Shown: positions 133-37,778 of the stretch, piece after piece
Layout: each line of letters opens with the position of its first letter
How positions within the stretch are numbered: the first letter of the stretch is position 1
Source of the DNA: a virus
IMG/VR virus record: IMGVR_UViG_3300045999_007984
Coordinates: 1-37,778 of that record
Length of the DNA: 37,778 nt
Reading direction: 5' to 3' (one strand)
Notes under the pieces: generated by a model
Seen by the model: the letters and a program-made list of their open reading frames with translations, nothing else
The model's database searches: none
Told to the model about the DNA's origin: nothing
Position numbers and translations under genes: made by a program

Positions 133-163
133 GTTTCCACAGGTTATTCACAGGTTTTCCACA
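133..163 (+). promoter_or_regulatory. Cluster of three DnaA-box-like sites, 11-bp period
   Basis: Three nine-base sites start at 133 (GTTTCCACA), 144 (TTATTCACA) and 155 (TTTTCCACA). The middle one fits the classical TTATNCACA DnaA box and the other two are close variants. The starts are exactly 11 bp apart, so the sites fall roughly on one face of the helix, as in co-operative initiator binding. Across the circular junction they lie about 330 bp from two perfect TTATCCACA boxes, supporting a single origin region. Confidence 0.7.
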
Positions 164-503: not shown

Positions 504-533
504 TTGACATTTGTCGGCGGGTATGCACGGTAG
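504..533 (+). promoter_or_regulatory. Early promoter candidate P1
   Basis: A perfect TTGACA (504-509) is followed after 18 bases by CGGTAG (528-533), about 50 bases before the first early gene. The same arrangement occurs before the second early gene. The -35 element is convincing for a host housekeeping sigma factor, but the -10 hexamer is far from TATAAT, so the exact -10 position is uncertain. Confidence 0.5.
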
Positions 534-2823: not shown

Positions 2824-2853
2824 TTGACACCCTGTTGGATAGTGGCACATTCT
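2824..2853 (+). promoter_or_regulatory. Promoter candidate P3 of the main rightward operon
   Basis: TTGACA (2824-2829) is followed after 18 bases by CATTCT (2848-2853) and then AAG. The same pair of elements, with identical spacing, occurs at P4. The start codon of the next gene lies 52 bases after the -10 region. Confidence 0.55.
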
Positions 2854-6755: not shown

Positions 6756-7679
6756 ATGAGTTCAGTTGGAATGACAGCAGAGCAAGTGATCAACGGCGTG
6801 AAGTCCGCATCCAAGCGGCCGACGCGTCGTATCCCGACAGGGTTCGCCATCATCGATAAGATGACTGGCGGAGGTGTCGGTGCTGGCGAGGTGTGCCTCG
6901 TCATCGGTAAGTCTGGCAGCGGTAAGTCGCTCGTCGGACAGAACATTGTTGAAGCGAACCTTGACAAGGCCGGCGTGTTCTTCTCGCTAGAGATGCCAGG
7001 TATGCTGTGCTTCGCACGCAGCCTTGCGCAATACACTGGCATTGACTACTTCCAGGTGTTCGACACGATGAACCAGGAAGGTGAGTTGAACGAGAAGCTT
7101 GTCGAGAAGATGGGCGAATGGCAGGAGGCGCACGAGAAGATGTACCTCGTGACGCGTTCCACTCTCACCCTTGACGAGATGTCATCCGTGTTGGCCGAGT
7201 GTGAAGAGAAGCTTGGCGAGAAGCCGGCATACTGTGTCATCGACTATCTGGAACTTGTCGGCGTTGAGGGTGGCAGCGGTGAAGCGATCGAGAACGTGAC
7301 GAATGTTGCGCAACGGTTGAAGGCTTGGGCTAAGCAGCACAACATTGCTGTGTATGTCCTGCACCAGACGAACAAGAGCCTCCGTCACGGGGACGCGCCC
7401 GACGAAGAGTCGGCGCGTTACGGCGGGTTCACCGAAGCTGACGTAGTAATCGGTGTGTGGCGTCCTCACCGCTGGGCACCGCACGACAAGAAGCGCCCGC
7501 CAATGTCGGAGCTGACGACAGAAGCGTTGAAGAACTGGATTGCTGTGAACGTCATCAAGAACCGCCCACGCATCGAACTTGATGACCGTGGCTGGCTGTT
7601 CCCTCTGCATCGCTCAGGCAAGATTGTCAACGACCGTATGGATCCTCCTCCGTGCCACGCAGGGTTTGGGCCTCTCTGA
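6756..7679 (+). CDS. DnaB/RecA-fold ATPase, probable replicative helicase domain
   Basis: This 307-residue protein consists essentially of one RecA-like ATPase core. Walker A is GKSGSGKS (51-58), the catalytic glutamate region is FFSLEM (75-80), Walker B is AYCVIDYLEL (158-167) and the sensor is VYVLHQTN (199-206). The helicase start RIPTGFAIIDKMTGGG resembles the DnaB C-terminal domain (TGF..LD.ltgG). The N-terminal DnaB domain that binds primase is absent, so it could also be a RadA/KaiC-like recombination ATPase. It has a clear GGAGACAA ribosome-binding site and its own promoter candidate. I infer that it loads at the DnaA-box origin with host replisome proteins. Confidence 0.85.
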   Translation: MSSVGMTAEQVINGVKSASKRPTRRIPTGFAIIDKMTGGGVGAGEVCLVIGKSGSGKSLVGQNIVEANLDKAGVFFSLEMPGMLCFARSLAQYTGIDYFQVFDTMNQEGELNEKLVEKMGEWQEAHEKMYLVTRSTLTLDEMSSVLAECEEKLGEKPAYCVIDYLELVGVEGGSGEAIENVTNVAQRLKAWAKQHNIAVYVLHQTNKSLRHGDAPDEESARYGGFTEADVVIGVWRPHRWAPHDKKRPPMSELTTEALKNWIAVNVIKNRPRIELDDRGWLFPLHRSGKIVNDRMDPPPCHAGFGPL

Positions 7680-8388: not shown

Positions 8389-8921
8389 GTTTCCACGAAC
8401 GTTCAATCCACGAACGTATCTCTGGGCTGGCAGGCAAGCCGGCAGAGAACGCGTTCGAACTGGTGATGGCAGAGCGTGGCCGAATCGTAGGTCAGCAACT
8501 GTTCCGTTTCGGATTCGACCAGGTTGACACACGGGACGGTGCAGTGGCTACGTTCCCGCGTGTTATGCGTCACACACCCGACTACATCTCTGTGGGCGGG
8601 CATCTGTATGAGGTGCAGGGGTGCGGCAATGACCGCACCCTGACCTTCAAAAAGGAGAAGCTGGAAGATATGTTGAAGTGGGCAGAGTTCGCAGGGCGCG
8701 AACTTCGCTGGGCTTTCTTCATCCAAGCTGACGACTGTGTCCTGTTCGCAACTATGGACGCTGTCATCTCCTCACTGTCGGACCCTCGGACGACACAAAC
8801 CATTCTCGATCCTGACACGCAGAACCCGAAGGAAGCGTGGCGTGTACCTGTGGAAGTGTTCTATGACAAACGAGTTAGAGACTGTTTTGCGGCTGATCGC
8901 AAAGTGGGTAGCCGTGGCTAG
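8385..8921 (+). CDS. Putative PD-(D/E)XK-like nuclease
   Basis: This 178-residue protein is not recognised with certainty. The stretch TPDYISVGGHLYEVQGCG (64-81) has the spacing of a PD-(D/E)XK core, with P65-D66 and E76-x-Q78 (a Q in place of K, as in several phage and Hjc-type nucleases). A basic helix follows (LTFKKEKLEDMLKWAEFA). It starts at an ATG overlapping the previous stop and itself overlaps the sigma-like gene by 59 bases. Endonuclease or structure-specific nuclease activity is an inference. Confidence 0.62.
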   Translation: MSFHERSIHERISGLAGKPAENAFELVMAERGRIVGQQLFRFGFDQVDTRDGAVATFPRVMRHTPDYISVGGHLYEVQGCGNDRTLTFKKEKLEDMLKWAEFAGRELRWAFFIQADDCVLFATMDAVISSLSDPRTTQTILDPDTQNPKEAWRVPVEVFYDKRVRDCFAADRKVGSRG

Positions 8922-9336
8922 GAACCCGAAACCCCTACCGTACGACCCGCACCTGGTGGACAGCGGGCAGCTTGCGCCGTTCTTCACTGTCGAAGATGTG
9001 TATTTCGAAGGCGACGAGTTCGATGGTGAGGACACCCTCATCCTTTACATAGGCCGGCTGATGGATGACCTGCCTGAGCGTCAGCGTTCCTGTGTGCAGC
9101 TTTGCGTTATGAACGGGCATTCCTACCTGGAGGCGTCACGTATGATTGGCTGCTCCGACCAGACGGTGCGCCGCGAATGTTTGCGCGCATTGAAAACCAT
9201 CCGTGATGCTATCATCGAGTCTCCGTGGGCTGCAGAACTCGACGACCGTATACCGTCGAGCAACACCACACCGCAGGCTGGCTCATCGTTCTTTGACATT
9301 TTGAACAACCTGACGGAGGACGAAGACAATGGGTAA
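8863..9336 (+). CDS. Sigma-70 region-4-like transcription factor
   Basis: This 157-residue protein has residues 69-116 that read as sigma region 4. LPERQRSCVQL starts the domain, GHSYLEASRMIGCSDQTVRREC gives the helix-turn-helix that contacts a -35 element, and LRALKTIRDAI ends it. Regions 2 and 3, which bind the -10 and core RNA polymerase, are not present; the N-terminus is short and acidic. The ATG used sits inside the previous gene, behind GGAAG. An upstream start in the same frame would add 42 residues unlike any sigma factor. It is the only obvious transcription factor of the family in the genome, so it is the leading candidate for switching on the late leftward promoters. Confidence 0.8.
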   Translation: MTNELETVLRLIAKWVAVARNPKPLPYDPHLVDSGQLAPFFTVEDVYFEGDEFDGEDTLILYIGRLMDDLPERQRSCVQLCVMNGHSYLEASRMIGCSDQTVRRECLRALKTIRDAIIESPWAAELDDRIPSSNTTPQAGSSFFDILNNLTEDEDNG

Positions 9337-10044: not shown

Positions 10045-10452
10045 CGGGTCACGCCTCTGGATTTCCTCGGCAGCCATAAGGACTGCCGGCGGGATGCTCA
10101 TACCCTCGATCGGGCCCGCTGACGCTTCCGCTGGGATAGGCTGCTGAGGGGCCGCCAGAGGGGCTGAAATAGGGGCGGCTGGTACCTGCATAGGGAGAAT
10201 GCTCTCGAAGCCAGCAGGCGCCGTCTGAGGGGCCAATGCGGGGATTCTGGGGGCAGGCTGAGCAAACTGCTCCAATGGTGTGGGCTGTGGGGCTGGCTGT
10301 GCTGGGGCTGGTGCCGGTTGTGGAGCAACTCGAGGGGTTGGGCGCAGCACCTGCTGTTCCCTGACAGTGGGCAGCTGAGGTCCCTGACCCAAACCCTGGG
10401 CCTGCTTGGCGCGCATCTTGGCGACCATAGTCGAGATAGGGTCGAGCGCCAT
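9988..10452 (-). CDS. Pro/Ala/Gln-rich hypothetical protein, last leftward gene
   Basis: This 154-residue protein has residues about 25-120 that are low complexity, dominated by Pro, Ala and Gln, with repeated PAPAP and PQP units. The last 35 residues (IQRRDPSIRFGRAIDEAAAILGLA) look helical. The start is ATG 10452, which shares a base with the previous stop (TGATG); a GTG one codon earlier is possible. Flexible Pro-rich proteins near the end of the late operon may be minor virion proteins, but no function can be assigned. Confidence 0.6.
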   Translation of the reverse strand: MALDPISTMVAKMRAKQAQGLGQGPQLPTVREQQVLRPTPRVAPQPAPAPAQPAPQPTPLEQFAQPAPRIPALAPQTAPAGFESILPMQVPAAPISAPLAAPQQPIPAEASAGPIEGMSIPPAVLMAAEEIQRRDPSIRFGRAIDEAAAILGLA

Positions 10453-16462: not shown

Positions 16463-18028
16463 TTATACCTCCAACCTAAACCACGGTAGTTTGTACTCGT
16501 TTGCCAAGTACTTAGCTGCGGTTCGTTTCCAGTTAGCATTTGATTGGCTAAACAACTTGCCATTTGTGTTGGCTGTCGTAGACTCTGTGGTATATGTACC
16601 GTAGTTTACCCTACCATTTGTGTCTGCTACCTCAGCCTCTGAACTAGAACGTGTCCTATTGTACGTTATCTTTAGAGTGGTGCTGTTGACGCTGGCTATT
16701 GTGTTTATGCCATCGTATCCTAGACCAACATCTGTTACGTAGATAGTGCTACCTACAGTGAGACCAGTGACAGAATCCATGGTGAGAGTAGCAACAGTAC
16801 CAGAGTGAGCGCGCTTTGTTGTTGTTCTGTACGAAGGAGACTTCCAATACGTGATGGTCTTGGTGGCCTGATCCACAGAAAGAAGATCCAGTGTAGCATC
16901 GTACCTAGCGTCTCCAAACCCAGATACAGCTACCTTAGTTCCAGCTTGGTCGCCAACCTGCCCGTAAAGATTGTCCACATTGTTCATCACAAGGGTGGCA
17001 ATGCCGTTGCTGTAGGAACGAGATACACTGGTTTTTGGAGTGTCAGGTCCTTCAAAGGATGTCGGCGGGCTGTTAAGAATGGTCTTGGATACATAGCTAG
17101 TATCGCCAACCTGCGTAGTTCCAACGTTAAGAATGTACGATGGAGAAATACCAAAGTCTGCAACACCGGTTGCGCCAGCAACCCTATAGTTGTACAACTT
17201 GATTGGTGCGCTTCCGCCTGATGCTAGAGCAACGGTAGCGTCAATGATAGTGTCCTCAGCGTAGTTCACGCTGTAGACTTTTACCAGACCAGGGTTACCA
17301 GTATTGGCAATAGTTACTGGGCCAACGCCAGTAGAAAGCCTTACTATCTCACCGCTGATTAGATAACCAACAGCATAAGCTGTGCCTGCCACAAGAGAAA
17401 TAGGAGATTCCAAGAGTTTTTGAGAAACCTGATCGTCAAAGTTGAAAATGGTAAAGTCGTCAGGTGTCTGACCAACCAGAGTAAAGTTGGTTGCTTTGTT
17501 GTTTGCATCTAGTGTGATTCTGTAAACCACAAACCAGCGCTTACCGCCATACTTCAAACCAGCGTTACCAGAGTCTGAATACCTAGCACCAGTTGTAGAT
17601 GTACCAGCAGCACCACCAGGAAGGTAGTAGTTGTTGTTACGGTAGAAAGTTCCACTAGTTGATATTGGCTGATTGTTGGCGTCCAGGCGCATGAGCGCCC
17701 AACCCTTGGCGTCTGTGGTACTGTTTAGTCTTGCACTACTAACCTTGGTTATAGTCATGTCGTACTTGGCGATGAACGTCGCAAGGTACATCTGATTTTG
17801 AATAACGTTGGTAGTACCACTAGGAATACTTCTGGGGTATGAGTGAATATACGACCTGGTTGAGTCCTCAACGTTGTTGAAAATGTCGCGACTCTGCCAC
17901 TGGCCCGAGCCGCTGTCAAACGCCAGCACCGTACCTTCGGTAGGTGCTGGAACTGTCACATTGGACAGGTCGTCCAGGCTGATGGTTTCGTCCAGCGTCT
18001 GCTGATAGTCAAAGGTAAAGAACGGCAT
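16463..18028 (-). CDS. Tail fibre/appendage protein with two beta-domain repeats
   Basis: This is a 521-residue protein starting at the ATG that overlaps the upstream stop (TGATG); an in-frame upstream extension of 17 residues is less likely. Near its start it has one ISLDDLSNVTVPAPTEGTVL module also used in the next fibre. Residues 335-398 and 404-475 are two copies of a beta domain with the pattern VATLTM..VTGL.VG..IYV..VGLGYDG...I.SVNS.T..ITY. The same domain is found in the tail nozzle protein and inside the capsid protein. I infer a distal tail structure; no enzyme motif is seen. Confidence 0.75.
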   Translation of the reverse strand: MPFFTFDYQQTLDETISLDDLSNVTVPAPTEGTVLAFDSGSGQWQSRDIFNNVEDSTRSYIHSYPRSIPSGTTNVIQNQMYLATFIAKYDMTITKVSSARLNSTTDAKGWALMRLDANNQPISTSGTFYRNNNYYLPGGAAGTSTTGARYSDSGNAGLKYGGKRWFVVYRITLDANNKATNFTLVGQTPDDFTIFNFDDQVSQKLLESPISLVAGTAYAVGYLISGEIVRLSTGVGPVTIANTGNPGLVKVYSVNYAEDTIIDATVALASGGSAPIKLYNYRVAGATGVADFGISPSYILNVGTTQVGDTSYVSKTILNSPPTSFEGPDTPKTSVSRSYSNGIATLVMNNVDNLYGQVGDQAGTKVAVSGFGDARYDATLDLLSVDQATKTITYWKSPSYRTTTKRAHSGTVATLTMDSVTGLTVGSTIYVTDVGLGYDGINTIASVNSTTLKITYNRTRSSSEAEVADTNGRVNYGTYTTESTTANTNGKLFSQSNANWKRTAAKYLANEYKLPWFRLEV

Positions 18029-32885: not shown

Positions 32886-34793
32886 TTAGAAACCTCCTAG
32901 TTCACTCAGCGAAGCCAGACTGCCCTGCTCAACAGGCATACCCAGCGCTTCCTCGAGACCACCTGTTGGGGCCCCAAGATCCTGTGGCAGCGCGCCCATA
33001 TCGAGCGGCATCTCCCCACCCATACTCAGCTCAGGTGCGGCCGGCTCCATAGGAGCGGCCTCAGGCGGAGGGGTCTTAGTCAACAGATGGTCAGGGTCAT
33101 ACCCGAGCTCGCGGATAGCGTGACGCAACGCCGGCTCAGGATCATACCCATAGTTGGACAGTGTCGGAATGACCACGTTCATCAGCTCGATGGCGCGACC
33201 CTGCCGTGTAGCAGGGTTCGCAGCCTCAAGAGACCCGCCCTCGACCCGCATATCGTACTCACCGTACAACATCTCAGCGTCAACATCCGCCCACATAGCA
33301 CCGTTAGGACCGAGAATACGGACAGGTTTAGAGTCCGTCATGAACTCTTGGCAGAGACGAATCAGCAGGTTGAACACTCGTGACGCAGCCTTCTCCACAG
33401 ACGCAACCTTGTCCTTAGCGCGCAGCGTAGCAACACCGTCAACTACAGCGGCAGTGTACGCAGCCATACGGTCAGCTCCAACGCCACCAGCCTGGAAGTC
33501 GTTGATGCCCAACACCTGACGCATAGCGTCTTCCATCTTGCCCTGAGCAGCATAAATGTCCGACGGCAGCGAAGCACGCGGCACAGGAACAATAACGTCA
33601 GACAAAGGCTGACCAGTAGCCGGCAAATCAACCTCAACAACAACGTCAGGTTCGTTCGACTCGAGACGGTCCCGCGCATCACTAGACAAAGCACCCTTAA
33701 CAGTCAGATACTTGTTACCTGCACGACGCATATTGTCCACCTGCTCGGTGAACACCTCATTCAACTTCTCCTGCAGAGACGCAATGTTCTCCAGATCGCC
33801 GAACGCCCAGATCTCGTTCCCGCCATCCTTGTAGTTGCTCATATGCACGAACGGGCTGAAACGATGCTGGAACGGAATGTCGCCCTCGAAGAGAGCCTTC
33901 TCGGCTCCCAACTGGAAAACTTTCAACGTGCGGGTCCGCATATCGTAGAACTCGTAGATAGTGGCGTTAGCGAACACCTGCTCGCTGTACTTGTCCGCAG
34001 AGAACTGGGTGCCCATATCGCGCTGGCGGGTATCCCCATCCTCGATAAGCAGATCTTCCGTGTTACGCAACATCGGATTAGCTTTGATTTCGTCCACAGG
34101 CAGAACAACACGCTGAGCAATCCACCGGCAGTCGTCAATACGGCGTGAGTTCTCAGGGAAGAAAATGTCGTACGGAGAAACATACTCCACAAACGGCTCA
34201 TCTTCCTCAACGATCTTCTCAGTTACCGGCACATACTCGGCCAGCTCCTCCAGAGAAGCCATGTCCTCACGCCCCTCGGCGCGGGCCATACGGCCCTCAG
34301 CCTCGATAACGTCAGCGAGCTCAACATCGAACGTTTCCTGGTCCTTGTTCCGCTCAGCTTCAACGTGCGTCCAGCCAACCTTGCAGAAACCGTTACCAAG
34401 AACCACCAAGTCCTGCGCCATATCACGCAGAACAGCCGTAGCACCAGTCCGCAGCCAGTAGTAGTAGCCAACAGACTCCGCAACCTTAGCTGCAACCTCA
34501 GCGACCTCGCCACCAGAGTAAGGAACAGCGATAGGACGCGGGTCACGCGACACGATAGACGCAATGATGATGTTCAAATGCGGCAAAACCATGTTGATCG
34601 TCTCAAGATCAGCAGGCGACAGACGCTCAAACACCTTGTTGTACGCAACCAAATCCGAAATAGGCTGCGATTTACCGGTACGGTACAACAACTCCAGCGC
34701 ACGGAACCACTGATGACGGTGCCTGTAGCGGCTCTTCGCATCCTCAACAAGGCGCTGGGCTTCACTAAGCGTATACGGACGCAAACGACCCAT
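32886..34793 (-). CDS. Portal protein
   Basis: This 635-residue protein fits the large podoviral/P22-like portal class. Landmarks are RYRHRHQWFRALELLYRTGKSQ near the N-terminus, the conserved NMVLPHLNIIIASIVSRDPRPIAVPY, a helix-rich clip region with ELAEYVPVTEKIVEEDEPFVEYVSPYDIFFP, and a helical crown-like end. The ATG overlaps the terminase stop (TGATG). The dodecameric portal is the DNA gate for packaging and the attachment site of the tail adaptor. The C-terminal 50 residues are Pro/Gly/Met-rich and flexible. Confidence 0.9.
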   Translation of the reverse strand: MGRLRPYTLSEAQRLVEDAKSRYRHRHQWFRALELLYRTGKSQPISDLVAYNKVFERLSPADLETINMVLPHLNIIIASIVSRDPRPIAVPYSGGEVAEVAAKVAESVGYYYWLRTGATAVLRDMAQDLVVLGNGFCKVGWTHVEAERNKDQETFDVELADVIEAEGRMARAEGREDMASLEELAEYVPVTEKIVEEDEPFVEYVSPYDIFFPENSRRIDDCRWIAQRVVLPVDEIKANPMLRNTEDLLIEDGDTRQRDMGTQFSADKYSEQVFANATIYEFYDMRTRTLKVFQLGAEKALFEGDIPFQHRFSPFVHMSNYKDGGNEIWAFGDLENIASLQEKLNEVFTEQVDNMRRAGNKYLTVKGALSSDARDRLESNEPDVVVEVDLPATGQPLSDVIVPVPRASLPSDIYAAQGKMEDAMRQVLGINDFQAGGVGADRMAAYTAAVVDGVATLRAKDKVASVEKAASRVFNLLIRLCQEFMTDSKPVRILGPNGAMWADVDAEMLYGEYDMRVEGGSLEAANPATRQGRAIELMNVVIPTLSNYGYDPEPALRHAIRELGYDPDHLLTKTPPPEAAPMEPAAPELSMGGEMPLDMGALPQDLGAPTGGLEEALGMPVEQGSLASLSELGGF

Positions 34794-36514
34794 CAGAGCG
34801 ACCTCATCCTTCTGCTACTCGAGCGTTTCATCTCTCTCCACATACGATTGTTCTTCTTCGCCTCCAAAGACCGAATCCTATCAGCCTCCTCAAAGATAGA
34901 GGATACAGACAGAACAGGTGCGGAAGGCTCCGACCTTTCACCTATAGGCCCAACCCCGACAGTCGACGGGTCCTCCGACAGAACATACACCCCAATAGCC
35001 AAAGACATCACCAAGTCGTCGTGGCAGCCAACGTCCGCGGCCGTAGTCCCGTTCTCACGGCGCACAAAAGTACCCAACTCGTCCCGCAAAAGCGGGTAAA
35101 TGTTCACCAGACGGCACACCCCAGACTCGTCCCTGTTCACAAACTCGGCCAAACGGTCAATGATAAGCGGCTTCGTAGTGCGAGAAGTAGGGAAACCAAA
35201 CACAGGGGCGCGACGCTGGCGCGCCGAAGCCGGAGGCAGCCAACGGTACATGTTCGGATAATGCAAATGGTTCTTCAACTTGTCAATAATCGTGATACCG
35301 GCACCACCACCAGTAGACTCGACCACCAGCAAAGCAGAAGACTGCCCAGAACCAGCAAAGAACCGGCCCACCCTGTTCAACTCCTCAGCCCAATCACCAG
35401 GCTCAGTGCTGTTAGAGTGCATATATCCGACGATCTCCACATCCCCGTTAGGCATCCACGCCAAAATCTGCGCAGCAGAGAAGTCATTACCAACACCGAG
35501 AGCAGGGTCAGCGGACAAAACGAACTTCCTGTTGAACGGAATGTCCGCAGGGTGGCACACCAGATGCAGCGGAGCGAGCCAAGACTCATCATCCCCAGCT
35601 AAACGGAACACAAAACCGTTCTCAGTCTCCTCAACCCAGCCGTGAACACCGAACTCCTCCGCATCATCCACCGGCGGCAACGCTTGAAAGCGTGGCCGAC
35701 CAGACTCACGGAACGCCTCCTCATCCGAAGACGGATACTCAGCGTAAAACAGCCACGGCTCAGAGATAAACTCCCGCTTCTTCGCGTCATAATCATCCTG
35801 CGAAATCAGACGAGACGCCGACCAAGGCTGAAACAGAGCGCGGAAACCGTTCAAACCGCGCTTAGCATCACGGTAAATCTTCGCAAACTGGTTGTTAGAC
35901 CCTCGCGCAGTCGAAATGATAATCAACCTACCACCAGCGTCCGTAGTAGGTTTGATAGTACGATACGTGTTCGCAGGGTCATCCATCAGAGCGAACTCGT
36001 CCAGAATCACCAGAGACGCCGTTTCACCAGCACCAGCAGTCTTAGTGCCAGCAAACGACTTCACACGGTTAAACGAACCGTCAGGGAACTTGAAAATGAT
36101 CTGCTTAGCAGCATCACCATCCAAGGTAGGGCCACGAGCTTTCATCCACTCGGGCAAAAAACTGTACATAAACCTGGACATACCAAGGTTCTTGTCCGCC
36201 GAATCCTGCGACTTACTGATCAATAGAATGTTCGCACGAGGCCGAAACATACACAGCCACAACGCATACGCCATAGCGAGCGTAGTGAACCCCAACTGGC
36301 GGGCTTTCAACACCACCGAGAAACGATCATGGATGAAAGCGTCCAACGCTTCCTCCTGATAATCCCACAGACCGAACAGCTCACGGCCCCGCGAATCCCG
36401 CTCAGATTCAATCCACACATACGTGCGAATAAAATAGTACGGATCCTCAGAACACTTCCGCCACTCCAGCTCACGGTACAGCTTCTCCAGCTCCTCCCGC
36501 TGCTTGTCATTCAC
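34793..36514 (-). CDS. Terminase large subunit
   Basis: This 573-residue packaging motor has the two canonical domains. In the ATPase, KARQLGFTT (70-78) is the Walker A variant and LVILDEFA (168-175) is Walker B with the catalytic Glu; IIISTARGSNNQ holds the coupling motif. In the nuclease, SADPALG (D337), VVESTG (E400) and GCHDDLVMS (D500/D501) supply the metal ligands. I chose GTG 36514, behind AGGAGAG and overlapping the small-subunit stop by eight bases, rather than an ATG 22 codons earlier. Promoter element L3 lies within its last 60 codons. Confidence 0.92.
   Translation of the reverse strand: MNDKQREELEKLYRELEWRKCSEDPYYFIRTYVWIESERDSRGRELFGLWDYQEEALDAFIHDRFSVVLKARQLGFTTLAMAYALWLCMFRPRANILLISKSQDSADKNLGMSRFMYSFLPEWMKARGPTLDGDAAKQIIFKFPDGSFNRVKSFAGTKTAGAGETASLVILDEFALMDDPANTYRTIKPTTDAGGRLIIISTARGSNNQFAKIYRDAKRGLNGFRALFQPWSASRLISQDDYDAKKREFISEPWLFYAEYPSSDEEAFRESGRPRFQALPPVDDAEEFGVHGWVEETENGFVFRLAGDDESWLAPLHLVCHPADIPFNRKFVLSADPALGVGNDFSAAQILAWMPNGDVEIVGYMHSNSTEPGDWAEELNRVGRFFAGSGQSSALLVVESTGGGAGITIIDKLKNHLHYPNMYRWLPPASARQRRAPVFGFPTSRTTKPLIIDRLAEFVNRDESGVCRLVNIYPLLRDELGTFVRRENGTTAADVGCHDDLVMSLAIGVYVLSEDPSTVGVGPIGERSEPSAPVLSVSSIFEEADRIRSLEAKKNNRMWREMKRSSSRRMRSL
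34940..34961 (-). promoter_or_regulatory. Late promoter element L3, inside the terminase gene
   Basis: TGTCG, 10 bases, TATAGGT, then GAAAGG on the minus strand, 146 bases before the portal start codon and within the terminase coding region. It keeps the full consensus although it must also code for protein, which argues that it is functional. It would allow portal expression above that of terminase. Confidence 0.65.
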
Positions 36515-37043
36515 CGGCAGCTCTCCTAGCCAGCTCCGCTTCCAAAGCCTCCACAGGGACCAACTGCACAACACGTTCAATCAGCTGTGCGTCATCCCAG
36601 TCGCGGAAATCCGACTTACGGGACGCGTTCTCCTCCTCCACGAAAGACTTACCGAACGTACGGAAATAAGTCTCCAAAGCGGACTTGTCGCCCGCAGCAG
36701 CCATCGTGATCAGCTTCGCGCGAATCGCAGCATAGTCACCCTCAGCGGACCCGTCCGCAACCACATACTTCGGGGCGGAAGCAACCGTCGAACCGGCCGT
36801 CAAACGCATAGCGTTCTGCTCACGGCGTTTCTCCAACTTCTCTTTGAAGTCGGGACGCGCCTTCCAGTTACGCAAAGTGCGATAGCCGACACCCTTAGCC
36901 TCAGCCCACTGAGCGTCAGTCGTAGGCAGACTGCCAGCCAAACGCTGCGTATGGTCCAACAGCAGCCACTCAACATACTCGTCGCGCAACTTATCCAAAG
37001 TCTCAGGGCGGCCACCCCGCATCGGTTTAGAACTTTCGTCCAT
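36507..37043 (-). CDS. Terminase small subunit
   Basis: This is a 178-residue protein. It is placed directly before the large subunit and overlaps it by eight bases. A helix-turn-helix (TDAQWAEAKGVGYRTLRNWKARPDF) near residues 40-65 would bind the packaging-initiation site, and a C-terminal helical segment (DDAQLIERVVQLVPVEALEAELARR) would bind the large subunit. I chose the ATG behind GGGAGATAACGAG; an upstream GTG start would add 20 residues and lacks a ribosome-binding site. It selects phage DNA for packaging. Confidence 0.82.
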   Translation of the reverse strand: MDESSKPMRGGRPETLDKLRDEYVEWLLLDHTQRLAGSLPTTDAQWAEAKGVGYRTLRNWKARPDFKEKLEKRREQNAMRLTAGSTVASAPKYVVADGSAEGDYAAIRAKLITMAAAGDKSALETYFRTFGKSFVEEENASRKSDFRDWDDAQLIERVVQLVPVEALEAELARRAAGE

Positions 37044-37162
37044 CTCGTTATCTCCCACAGCAACCTCCCAAAACGCGGAGGTGCGCAATCCGAGAGCCCA
37101 CACTACGCTCGTCAGTGGGGGAGATCACCAACCGCAAAAACGCGATCGGACGCACACTCTCC

Positions 37163-37184
37163 ACCTATAACCACAGGCACGACA
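37163..37184 (-). promoter_or_regulatory. Late promoter element L1, upstream of the terminase genes
   Basis: TGTCG, 10 bases, TATAGGT, then GGAGAG on the minus strand, about 120 bases before the small-terminase ATG. It is the first element in front of a late gene and heads the whole leftward programme. Confidence 0.68.
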
Positions 37185-37223
37185 AAAACCGTCGAAACAC
37201 CTCCAGCCCGCCCCGTCGCGGGC

Positions 37224-37240
37224 CCGCGCCGCAAGCGCGG
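37224..37240. other. GC-rich hairpin in the terminase leader/origin block
   Basis: CCGCGC and GCGCGG pair over six bases around CGCAA. It lies in a strikingly GC-rich stretch between L1 and L2. It may be a regulatory RNA structure or part of the DNA packaging site. Confidence 0.4.
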
Positions 37241-37255
37241 TGCCCGCTACCGGCG

Positions 37256-37328
37256 GGCTAGTTACTGGACCGCTCGCGGCGCCGCCGCCCTTAGGCGGGC
37301 GGCTGCCGCTCCGCGGCTAGTTACTGGA
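37256..37328. repeat. 14-bp direct repeat GGCTAGTTACTGGA, two copies
   Basis: The 14-mer occurs at 37256-37269 and 37315-37328, 59 bp apart. The region between contains a near-perfect GC hairpin (37281-37303: GCCGCCGCCC, TTA, GGCGGGCGGC). A repeated non-coding word next to the small terminase gene is a candidate for the site recognised by the small subunit, but nothing in the sequence proves this. Confidence 0.55.
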
Positions 37329-37384
37329 GGGCTACGGCGCGCGCTGGGCCGCGCTGCGCCTCGCCCATCCCCCCTACCCCCCTT

Positions 37385-37405
37385 ACCTATAGCTTCCGTT
37401 CGACA
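37385..37405 (-). promoter_or_regulatory. Late promoter-like element L2, far upstream
   Basis: TGTCG, 9 bases, TATAGGT, then AAGG on the minus strand, with a further TGTCG eleven bases upstream (the GTGTCG at 37411-37416). It has no gene immediately downstream; the nearest is the small terminase 340 bases away. It may make an untranslated RNA across the GC-rich repeats, or supply additional late transcription. Confidence 0.5.
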
Positions 37406-37474
37406 CTTTTTCGACACCCCACTTTTAGTCCTTCTGACCACCAGGAAGCCCAAGCGGGGCGCGGGTTTCGTGAG

Positions 37475-37495
37475 TTATCCACAGGGTTATCCACA
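37475..37495 (+). promoter_or_regulatory. Two perfect DnaA boxes
   Basis: Exact TTATCCACA boxes lie at 37475-37483 and 37487-37495, 12 bp apart and in the same orientation. This is the strongest known DnaA-binding sequence. Together with the iterons and the three boxes at the left end, it indicates an oriC-like origin that uses the host initiator. Confidence 0.85.
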
Positions 37496-37502
37496 GGCTA
37501 GG

Positions 37503-37518
37503 TGTGACAAAAATCACA
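37503..37518. promoter_or_regulatory. CRP/GlxR-type palindrome in the origin
   Basis: An exact TGTGA-N6-TCACA palindrome lies seven bases after the second DnaA box and 16 bases before the iterons. In this place a CRP-family protein could help or block unwinding of the origin. Confidence 0.55.
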
Positions 37519-37534
37519 AAAGATTTACAAAGAT

Positions 37535-37577
37535 TTAACCTTCTGTTAACCTTCCGTTAACCTTGTGTTAACCTTCC
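37535..37577 (+). repeat. Four 11-bp iterons, probable unwinding or initiator-binding element
   Basis: TTAACCTTCTG, TTAACCTTCCG, TTAACCTTGTG and TTAACCTTCC begin at 37535, 37546, 37557 and 37568, exactly 11 bp apart. They are preceded by two copies of AGATTTA. The array is AT-rich compared with its GC-rich surroundings. It is suited as a DNA-unwinding element or as an array for an initiator protein. It is not coding in any plausible frame. Confidence 0.8.
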
Positions 37578-37681
37578 AGGATCCGTTCCTCCTGATGGCC
37601 AGGACCCCCAGCTGCTAGCCGCAAAAAACCCTCCCATTGGCCACAGCCAGATGCCACCCACCCCCACCAGGTGGCAAGCCC
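37578..37681. other. Intergenic spacer between the iterons and the terminal repeat
   Basis: No gene is seen. It contains an inverted repeat TGCCACC (37652-37658) / GGTGGCA (37670-37676) and a run of six A residues (37623-37628), which on the minus strand would read as a hairpin followed later by T6. This might end leftward transcripts that cross the junction. Confidence 0.4.
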
Positions 37682-37775
37682 CAGGGCGCCGAAAACGGGG
37701 GCTGGCCGGTTTCCCATTTTGGCGAAAAATCTCTGGTCGACAGTATATATATACAGACCTGTGCGGTTGGGGGAA
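37682..37775. repeat. Terminal direct repeat, right copy
   Basis: This is the exact second copy of the first 94 bases. The last three bases of the window diverge from the left copy, which looks like an end-of-assembly error. The intergenic region at the right end therefore continues into the intergenic region at the left end. Confidence 0.9.
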
Positions 37776-37778
37776 ATG

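Follow-up and report, generated by a model that had tools for sequence, protein, structure and literature searches.

A noncoding region proposed to combine control of replication, early transcription, and packaging in the genome of a probable actinobacteriophage

The window analyzed here is a single virus record (IMGVR_UViG_3300045999_007984; 37,778 bases), a phage genome of 55% GC in which approximately 1.1 kb of noncoding DNA, with the end repeat counted once, separates the small terminase subunit gene, terS, from the first early gene at position 584. On balance, we favor the reading that this stretch is a composite control region, in which a DnaA-assisted origin of replication and CRP-controlled early promoters lie beside the packaging site. 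Reading through the region, one meets DnaA boxes at 37475 and 37487, a CRP/GlxR-type palindrome at 37503, an AT-rich stretch, iterons at 37535 to 37577, and the end repeat, followed on the other side by DnaA-like boxes at 133 to 163 and palindromes at 274, 291, and 467. The early genes, oriented rightward, extend from 584 to approximately 10.0 kb, and the structural genes occupy 37.1 to 10 kb in the leftward orientation.

DnaA boxes, iterons, and their departure from chance

DnaA cluster A (37475 to 37495, plus strand) consists of two perfect TTATCCACA boxes, at 37475 to 37483 and 37487 to 37495, which share an orientation and are spaced 12 bp start to start. Downstream, four 11-bp iterons of the form TTAACCTT-NNN (37535 to 37577, plus strand) start at 37535, 37546, 37557, and 37568, an exact 11-bp period, and TTAACCTT is confined to these iterons when both strands of the whole genome are checked. 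DnaA cluster B (133 to 163, plus strand) is made of three DnaA-like boxes, GTTTCCACA, TTATTCACA, and TTTTCCACA, again with an exact 11-bp period; the box at 133 to 141 has two mismatches, while those at 144 to 152 and 155 to 163 have one each. No gene starts within approximately 400 bp on either side of the 37475 to 37577 block.

The motif cluster is far beyond chance, as evidenced by comparison with 400 dinucleotide shuffles. Same-strand box pairs (at most one mismatch, within 13 bp) occur twice, against a shuffle mean of 0.0025, and none of the 400 shuffles contained two. Likewise, no shuffle contained a perfect DnaA-box pair, a four-copy 11-bp run of an 8-mer (the maximum was 2), or four palindromes as observed. 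An earlier, sequence-only reading had described two perfect boxes, four iterons, and three DnaA-like boxes in one noncoding block; these motifs are real, could be located exactly, and do lie in the noncoding stretch that separates the terminase genes from the first early gene. The block has no nucleotide match in annotated phages and plasmids, and the exact iteron pattern is absent from every other viral contig searched.

Duplex stability and strand skew

As in iteron-type origins, the DnaA boxes adjoin an AT-rich candidate unwinding element, and the tandem repeats are helically spaced. By nearest-neighbor calculation, no other 50-bp duplex in the 37,681-bp genome is as unstable as the candidate element (37499 to 37548) (rank 1 at 50 bp and rank 2 at 30 bp). 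It has GC-rich flanks and contains two AAAGATTTA repeats (37519 and 37529) 10 bp apart.

The cumulative GC skew reaches its minimum at 37,668, approximately 100 to 200 bp from the block, and near this position the sign of G minus C flips within noncoding DNA. A DnaA-box cluster and an unwinding element thus sit at a GC-skew minimum, as in oriC-type origins, with the reservation that skew is confounded with divergent transcription. The raw maximum, at 10,380, is the transcription switch, and the detrended maximum, at 18,025, is near the antipode. Because transcription diverges at the junction too, the analysis was restricted to fourfold-degenerate sites of leftward genes. Here, the coding-strand skew of minus-strand genes is -0.045 at 10 to 18.8 kb versus +0.119 at 18.7 to 37 kb (bootstrap interval of the difference, -0.33 to -0.03), which is the direction expected for forks departing the junction both ways and is suggestive rather than proof. 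GC skew had been put forward as a check on the origin proposal, and the minimum and the fourfold-site bias both fit. The strongest skew belongs to the genes beside the block (large terminase subunit, terL, +0.55; portal, +0.32). It is common to the closest relative, L002 (+0.50 and +0.32), and absent from most distant relatives, the means for terL and portal across all 13 to 15 relatives being near 0.0 and -0.19.

CRP/GlxR-type palindromes and putative early promoters

The sequence-only reading had missed a set of TGTGA-N6-TCACA palindromes. Exact copies lie at 37503 to 37518 (TGTGA-CAAAAA-TCACA, between the boxes and the AT-rich segment), 274 to 289, 467 to 482, and 2787 to 2802, and a copy with one mismatch lies at 291 to 306. 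Two of the five have a fixed position relative to a promoter-like site. The palindrome at 467 is 37 bp upstream of a TTGACA (504 to 509, plus strand), the -35 element of putative early promoter P1, which has a weak -10, and is 117 bp upstream of the first early gene; that at 2787 is 37 bp upstream of a second TTGACA (2824 to 2829, plus strand), the -35 element of putative early promoter P2, and lies 119 bp ahead of the gene at 2906. A scan with the sigma-70 consensus found no promoter in 36900 to 37778 or 1 to 700, so that P1 is assigned solely from its TTGACA and the shared 37-bp spacing. Just before P2, within the early operon, an HNH endonuclease gene (2219 to 2596) lies on the opposite, minus strand.

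The palindromes at 37503, 274, and 291 do not share this position. In the 37475 to 37577 block there is no promoter-like site at any of the palindrome-to-promoter distances found elsewhere, and for this reason the palindrome at 37503 may serve the origin. In other viruses, those distances are approximately 26, 36 to 37, 46 to 48, and 57 bp, that is, about one helical turn apart, several of them representing homologous copies that are not all independent. TGTGA and TCACA half-sites occur at a spacing of 6 four times in the window and at none of fourteen other spacings; in viruses carrying the module described below, the count is 44 at a spacing of 6 and at most 3 at any other, and the near-exclusive spacing of six is also seen in the window's own clade. 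The virus encodes no CRP-like protein above the cutoff.

A packaging-site-like element at the genome junction

The terS gene (36507 to 37103, minus strand) reaches to 37103, or to 37046 with an ATG start, and is followed by terL (34793 to 36580, minus strand). The ends of the window carry 94 identical bases (1 to 94 and 37682 to 37775), after which two of the three final positions mismatch; if this repeat represents an overlap, then the genome is a circle of approximately 37,681 bp. A conserved element of approximately 75 bp with a GTATATATATAC core (25 to 100, also 37706 to 37778; minus strand) falls in the end repeat. The element is kept upstream of terS in approximately 14 related contigs ranging from 35 to 58% GC, and a relaxed pattern made from it matches this terminase clade only. 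Several clade contigs terminate near it. As for a cos or pac site, this is a conserved sequence adjoining terS at a genome end, and it is probably the packaging site or terminus, with cutting by terminase predicted. Because the end repeat holds this conserved element upstream of terS, the junction has a function of its own, probably as the packaging terminus. The earlier description of an origin lying across the junction needs correction on this point: the junction itself is occupied by a 94-bp end repeat with a packaging-site-like element.

Replication genes and other proteins

The genome encodes a DnaB-type helicase of 307 amino acids that comprises the C-terminal (motor) domain only (6756 to 7679, plus strand) and whose closest annotated relatives are mostly mycobacteriophage helicases. 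Further recognized proteins are a sigma-70 region 4 protein (8737 to 9336, plus strand), which is conserved in the clade, a Dam-type methylase, a PD-(D/E)XK nuclease, and a RusA-like resolvase. Whole-genome searches for family A, B, and III polymerases were negative, the result being weak for one family that matched no control either, and no family match to a Rep-type initiator was obtained in Pfam, PHROGs, or NCBIfam. The earlier statement that no polymerase is recognizable beside a DnaB-type motor is thus supported by the family searches. Ten uncharacterized proteins, the majority early, had no informative match in the same three collections, and structure models for those encoded at 2906 and 5299 (mean pLDDT, 66 and 46) gave no usable fold match.

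The block lacks dnaA/dnaN-type neighbors, being flanked by terS and an uncharacterized early gene. Neither partition nor plasmid maintenance genes were seen in the window, which leaves the suggestion of plasmid-like maintenance without support. The searches run detected no integrase in the window, in keeping with the previous description of the phage as virulent, but that lifestyle is not established, considering that one relative, G030, carries a large serine recombinase and a Gp3-like directionality factor (L211:4037-5779:+ and L211:8689-9771:-). On the strength of these two genes, part of the clade is probably temperate.

Relatives of the phage

A search with the large terminase retrieved a clade of environmental contigs, while the helicase and nuclease used as baits retrieved no close relatives. 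Several clade contigs carry WhiB, which has been named as an actinophage marker (PMC10202952). This gene content points to actinobacterial hosts for the clade, and the virus studied here probably infects actinobacteria as well. One clade contig, L192 (9268 to 9332 and 10001 to 10657), has 35% GC and a partial large terminase approximately 80% identical to that of the 55% GC phage, a GC shift that is unusually large for one clade.

Across these relatives, an AT-rich control region keeps its position; DnaA boxes are distributed patchily, and only the window has the iterons. In L010, L011, and L012, the contig-wide minimum of 50-bp duplex stability falls between the packaging element and terS, as here, with GTTAC/GTTAAC repeats 11 bp apart and no DnaA boxes; L010 and L011 are nearly identical, so these three amount to about two diverged relatives. 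G029, G030, and G034 (17, 36, and 14 kb, respectively) each have one cluster of three perfect DnaA boxes and no perfect box elsewhere. L009, L013, and L014, in which the corresponding stretch is covered, have no DnaA cluster there. Most relatives have only approximately 100 to 190 bp between element and terS and no tandem repeats there. G030, which is near complete, encodes a full-length DnaB and WhiB and no polymerase, and its DnaA cluster is 65 to 115 bp from the first early gene. An imperfect inverted repeat of approximately 95 bp (35998 to 36090) lies beside that cluster.

Paired DnaA boxes with a CRP palindrome in other genomes

We defined a module as two DnaA boxes 12 bp apart followed by the palindrome within 20 bp. 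This pattern occurs in 22 viral contigs versus 2 loci in 84,980 bacterial and archaeal species genomes, a ratio that is rough because the collections differ in size, and many of the 22 contigs are copies of a few lineages. Pairs of the form TTATCCACAGG-N-TTATCCACAGG are common among viruses, with at least 119 such stretches in viral contigs. In viral contigs other than the window, DnaA-box pairs mostly lie upstream of genes, together with CRP palindromes, as in G007, G005, G014, and G021, where both kinds of site lie approximately 95 to 140 bp upstream of genes. The low-GC contigs G005, G007, G008, G012, G014, G020, G021, and G022 (e.g., L155 to L170) have two to seven exact CRP palindromes each, against approximately 0.04 expected per such contig from base composition, and DnaA-box pairs recur upstream of their early genes. 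In 22 kb of sequence read from Samistivirus relatives of these low-GC viruses, exact CRP palindromes were absent.

Two broader ideas about the module were rejected. The idea that it mimics a host chromosomal oriC was set aside, since the only two cellular loci are both from Methyloglobulus; they are on contigs other than those of the full-length dnaA, and the one read adjoins a long helicase-like gene. The idea that polymerase absence goes with the module also fails as a rule, since three large module viruses encode polymerase III, along with DnaB. One of the 22 contigs encodes a putative DUF932-like protein that is closest to proteins of Streptomyces, Mycobacterium, and Microbacterium phages. 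No description of the module turned up in the searchable literature, which lacks most subscription journals. We tentatively propose, as a possibility rather than an expectation, that the module has spread among diverse viruses, many resembling actinobacterial phages, while being nearly absent from cells; that it couples replication or early expression to the host's initiator level and cAMP state; and that here it is fused with an origin and a packaging site.

Comparison with known systems

In classical plasmid origins, an AT-rich unwinding element is accompanied by both DnaA boxes and iterons, and in P1 the DnaA boxes form two arrays (PMC4980987). The iteron origins of plasmids and phage-plasmids (RK2 oriV, P1 oriR, F, and pSC101) likewise hold these three components in approximately 100 bp, and two DnaA arrays, as in P1 (PMC4980987), are found here. 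In contrast to those origins, the phage iterons are 11 bp rather than 17 to 22 bp, no Rep gene was recognized adjoining the block, and the region includes CRP palindromes and a packaging-site element. The block resembles bacterial oriC in that high-affinity TTATCCACA boxes adjoin the least stable stretch of the replicon, where the GC skew is at its minimum; however, the phage has no dnaA/dnaN neighborhood, only two perfect boxes, and 11-bp iterons of another sequence. The sequence-only reading was right about the motifs and their noncoding location, but its label of a host-type origin is too strong.

For phage lambda, host polymerase copies the genome, with help from host DnaA sites (PMC3985674), and a similar arrangement is proposed here. 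Lambda differs in that its iterons are inside gene O and that it encodes O and P, whereas the present block is noncoding and the phage brings a DnaB-type motor. Extrachromosomal mycobacterial prophages have non-RepA origins that are described as RNA-based and as lying approximately 600 bp upstream of parA (PMC7157519), which likewise illustrate actinobacteriophage replication without a recognized initiator protein; unlike the case proposed here, DnaA is unmentioned in the text of that report (PMC7157519), and no parABS was noticed in this phage. Finally, the TGTGA-N6-TCACA sites at fixed, class I-like distances from a -35 element resemble actinobacterial CRP/GlxR promoters, although here they occur in virus genomes, mixed with DnaA boxes, and no viral CRP-like protein was found.

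A proposed mechanism and its alternatives

In the mechanism that we favor, the noncoding region from terS to the first early gene would act as a joint control for replication, early transcription, and packaging. Host DnaA would bind cluster A and probably also cluster B, which lies beyond the packaging element at a distance of 330 bp, while a second protein, host or phage encoded, would bind the four helically phased iterons. Together, DnaA and the iteron binder would melt the AT-rich segment at 37499 to 37548, where the phage DnaB-type helicase would be loaded, and the host replisome, including host polymerase III, would copy the genome. At 37503, a host protein of the CRP/GlxR type may act on the origin by bending or regulating it, and from 467 and 2787 it would activate the early promoters. 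The motifs and their nonrandomness are observations, as are the stability minimum and the skew, and family searches turned up no polymerase; we infer the identity of the binding proteins, melting and initiation at the block, and the role of CRP at 37503.

The main rival is a transcriptional hub, in which DnaA and a CRP/GlxR-type protein regulate divergent early and late promoters, letting the phage sense host replication capacity and nutritional (cAMP) state, while replication starts elsewhere. This is a credible account that we judge less likely. It draws on the exact 37-bp placement of the palindromes at 467 and 2787 before TTGACA, 117 and 119 bp before start codons; on half-sites found essentially at spacing 6 only and promoter distances that are helically spaced; and on module viruses (G007, G005, G014, and G021) with DnaA pairs and CRP sites close upstream of genes. 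Yet the 37475 to 37577 block has neither a promoter-like site at those distances nor a gene start nearby, a promoter needs neither iterons nor the stability minimum of the genome, and a polymerase-less genome would be left without a replication start. The DnaA-assisted origin is itself partly supported: in its favor count the chance-defying motifs, the stability minimum here and in L010, L011, and L012, the skew, a DnaB motor without a polymerase, and the clusters of G029, G030, and G034, while against it count the lack of a recognized initiator, the confounding of the skew, L009, L013, and L014 without a cluster, the position of the module upstream of genes elsewhere, the private nature of the iterons, and polymerase III in three module viruses.

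It is unlikely that the iterons and AT-rich segment are instead part of the packaging site, serving as TerS-binding repeats like lambda cosB. The order of terminus, repeats, and terS is indeed lambda-like, and the conserved element lies approximately 105 bp from the iterons, but most relatives have no tandem repeats in their short element-to-terS gap, and we know of no packaging role for DnaA boxes or CRP sites. Titration of host DnaA, whereby the boxes would slow host initiation or sense copy number and not start phage replication, seems quite unlikely: paired boxes are high affinity and frequent in viral contigs (the 119 or more stretches noted above), including some with their own polymerase III, yet this genome has only two perfect boxes, and they adjoin the stability minimum and iterons. 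Chance clustering or an assembly artifact is highly improbable, for even though the record is a single metagenomic one whose end repeat carries two mismatches at its extreme end, the shuffles argue otherwise, as does the fact that other assemblies contain both the packaging-like element and stability minima equivalent to the one seen here.

Implications

A small phage that lacks a polymerase has to recruit the host replisome, and the mechanism by which this is done is known for few models. The DnaA-assisted origin favored here would offer a compact candidate, one in which host DnaA sites, iterons, and an unwinding element fit into 100 bp. Moreover, the CRP palindromes at early promoters suggest that a metabolic signal of the host is sensed there by environmental phages.
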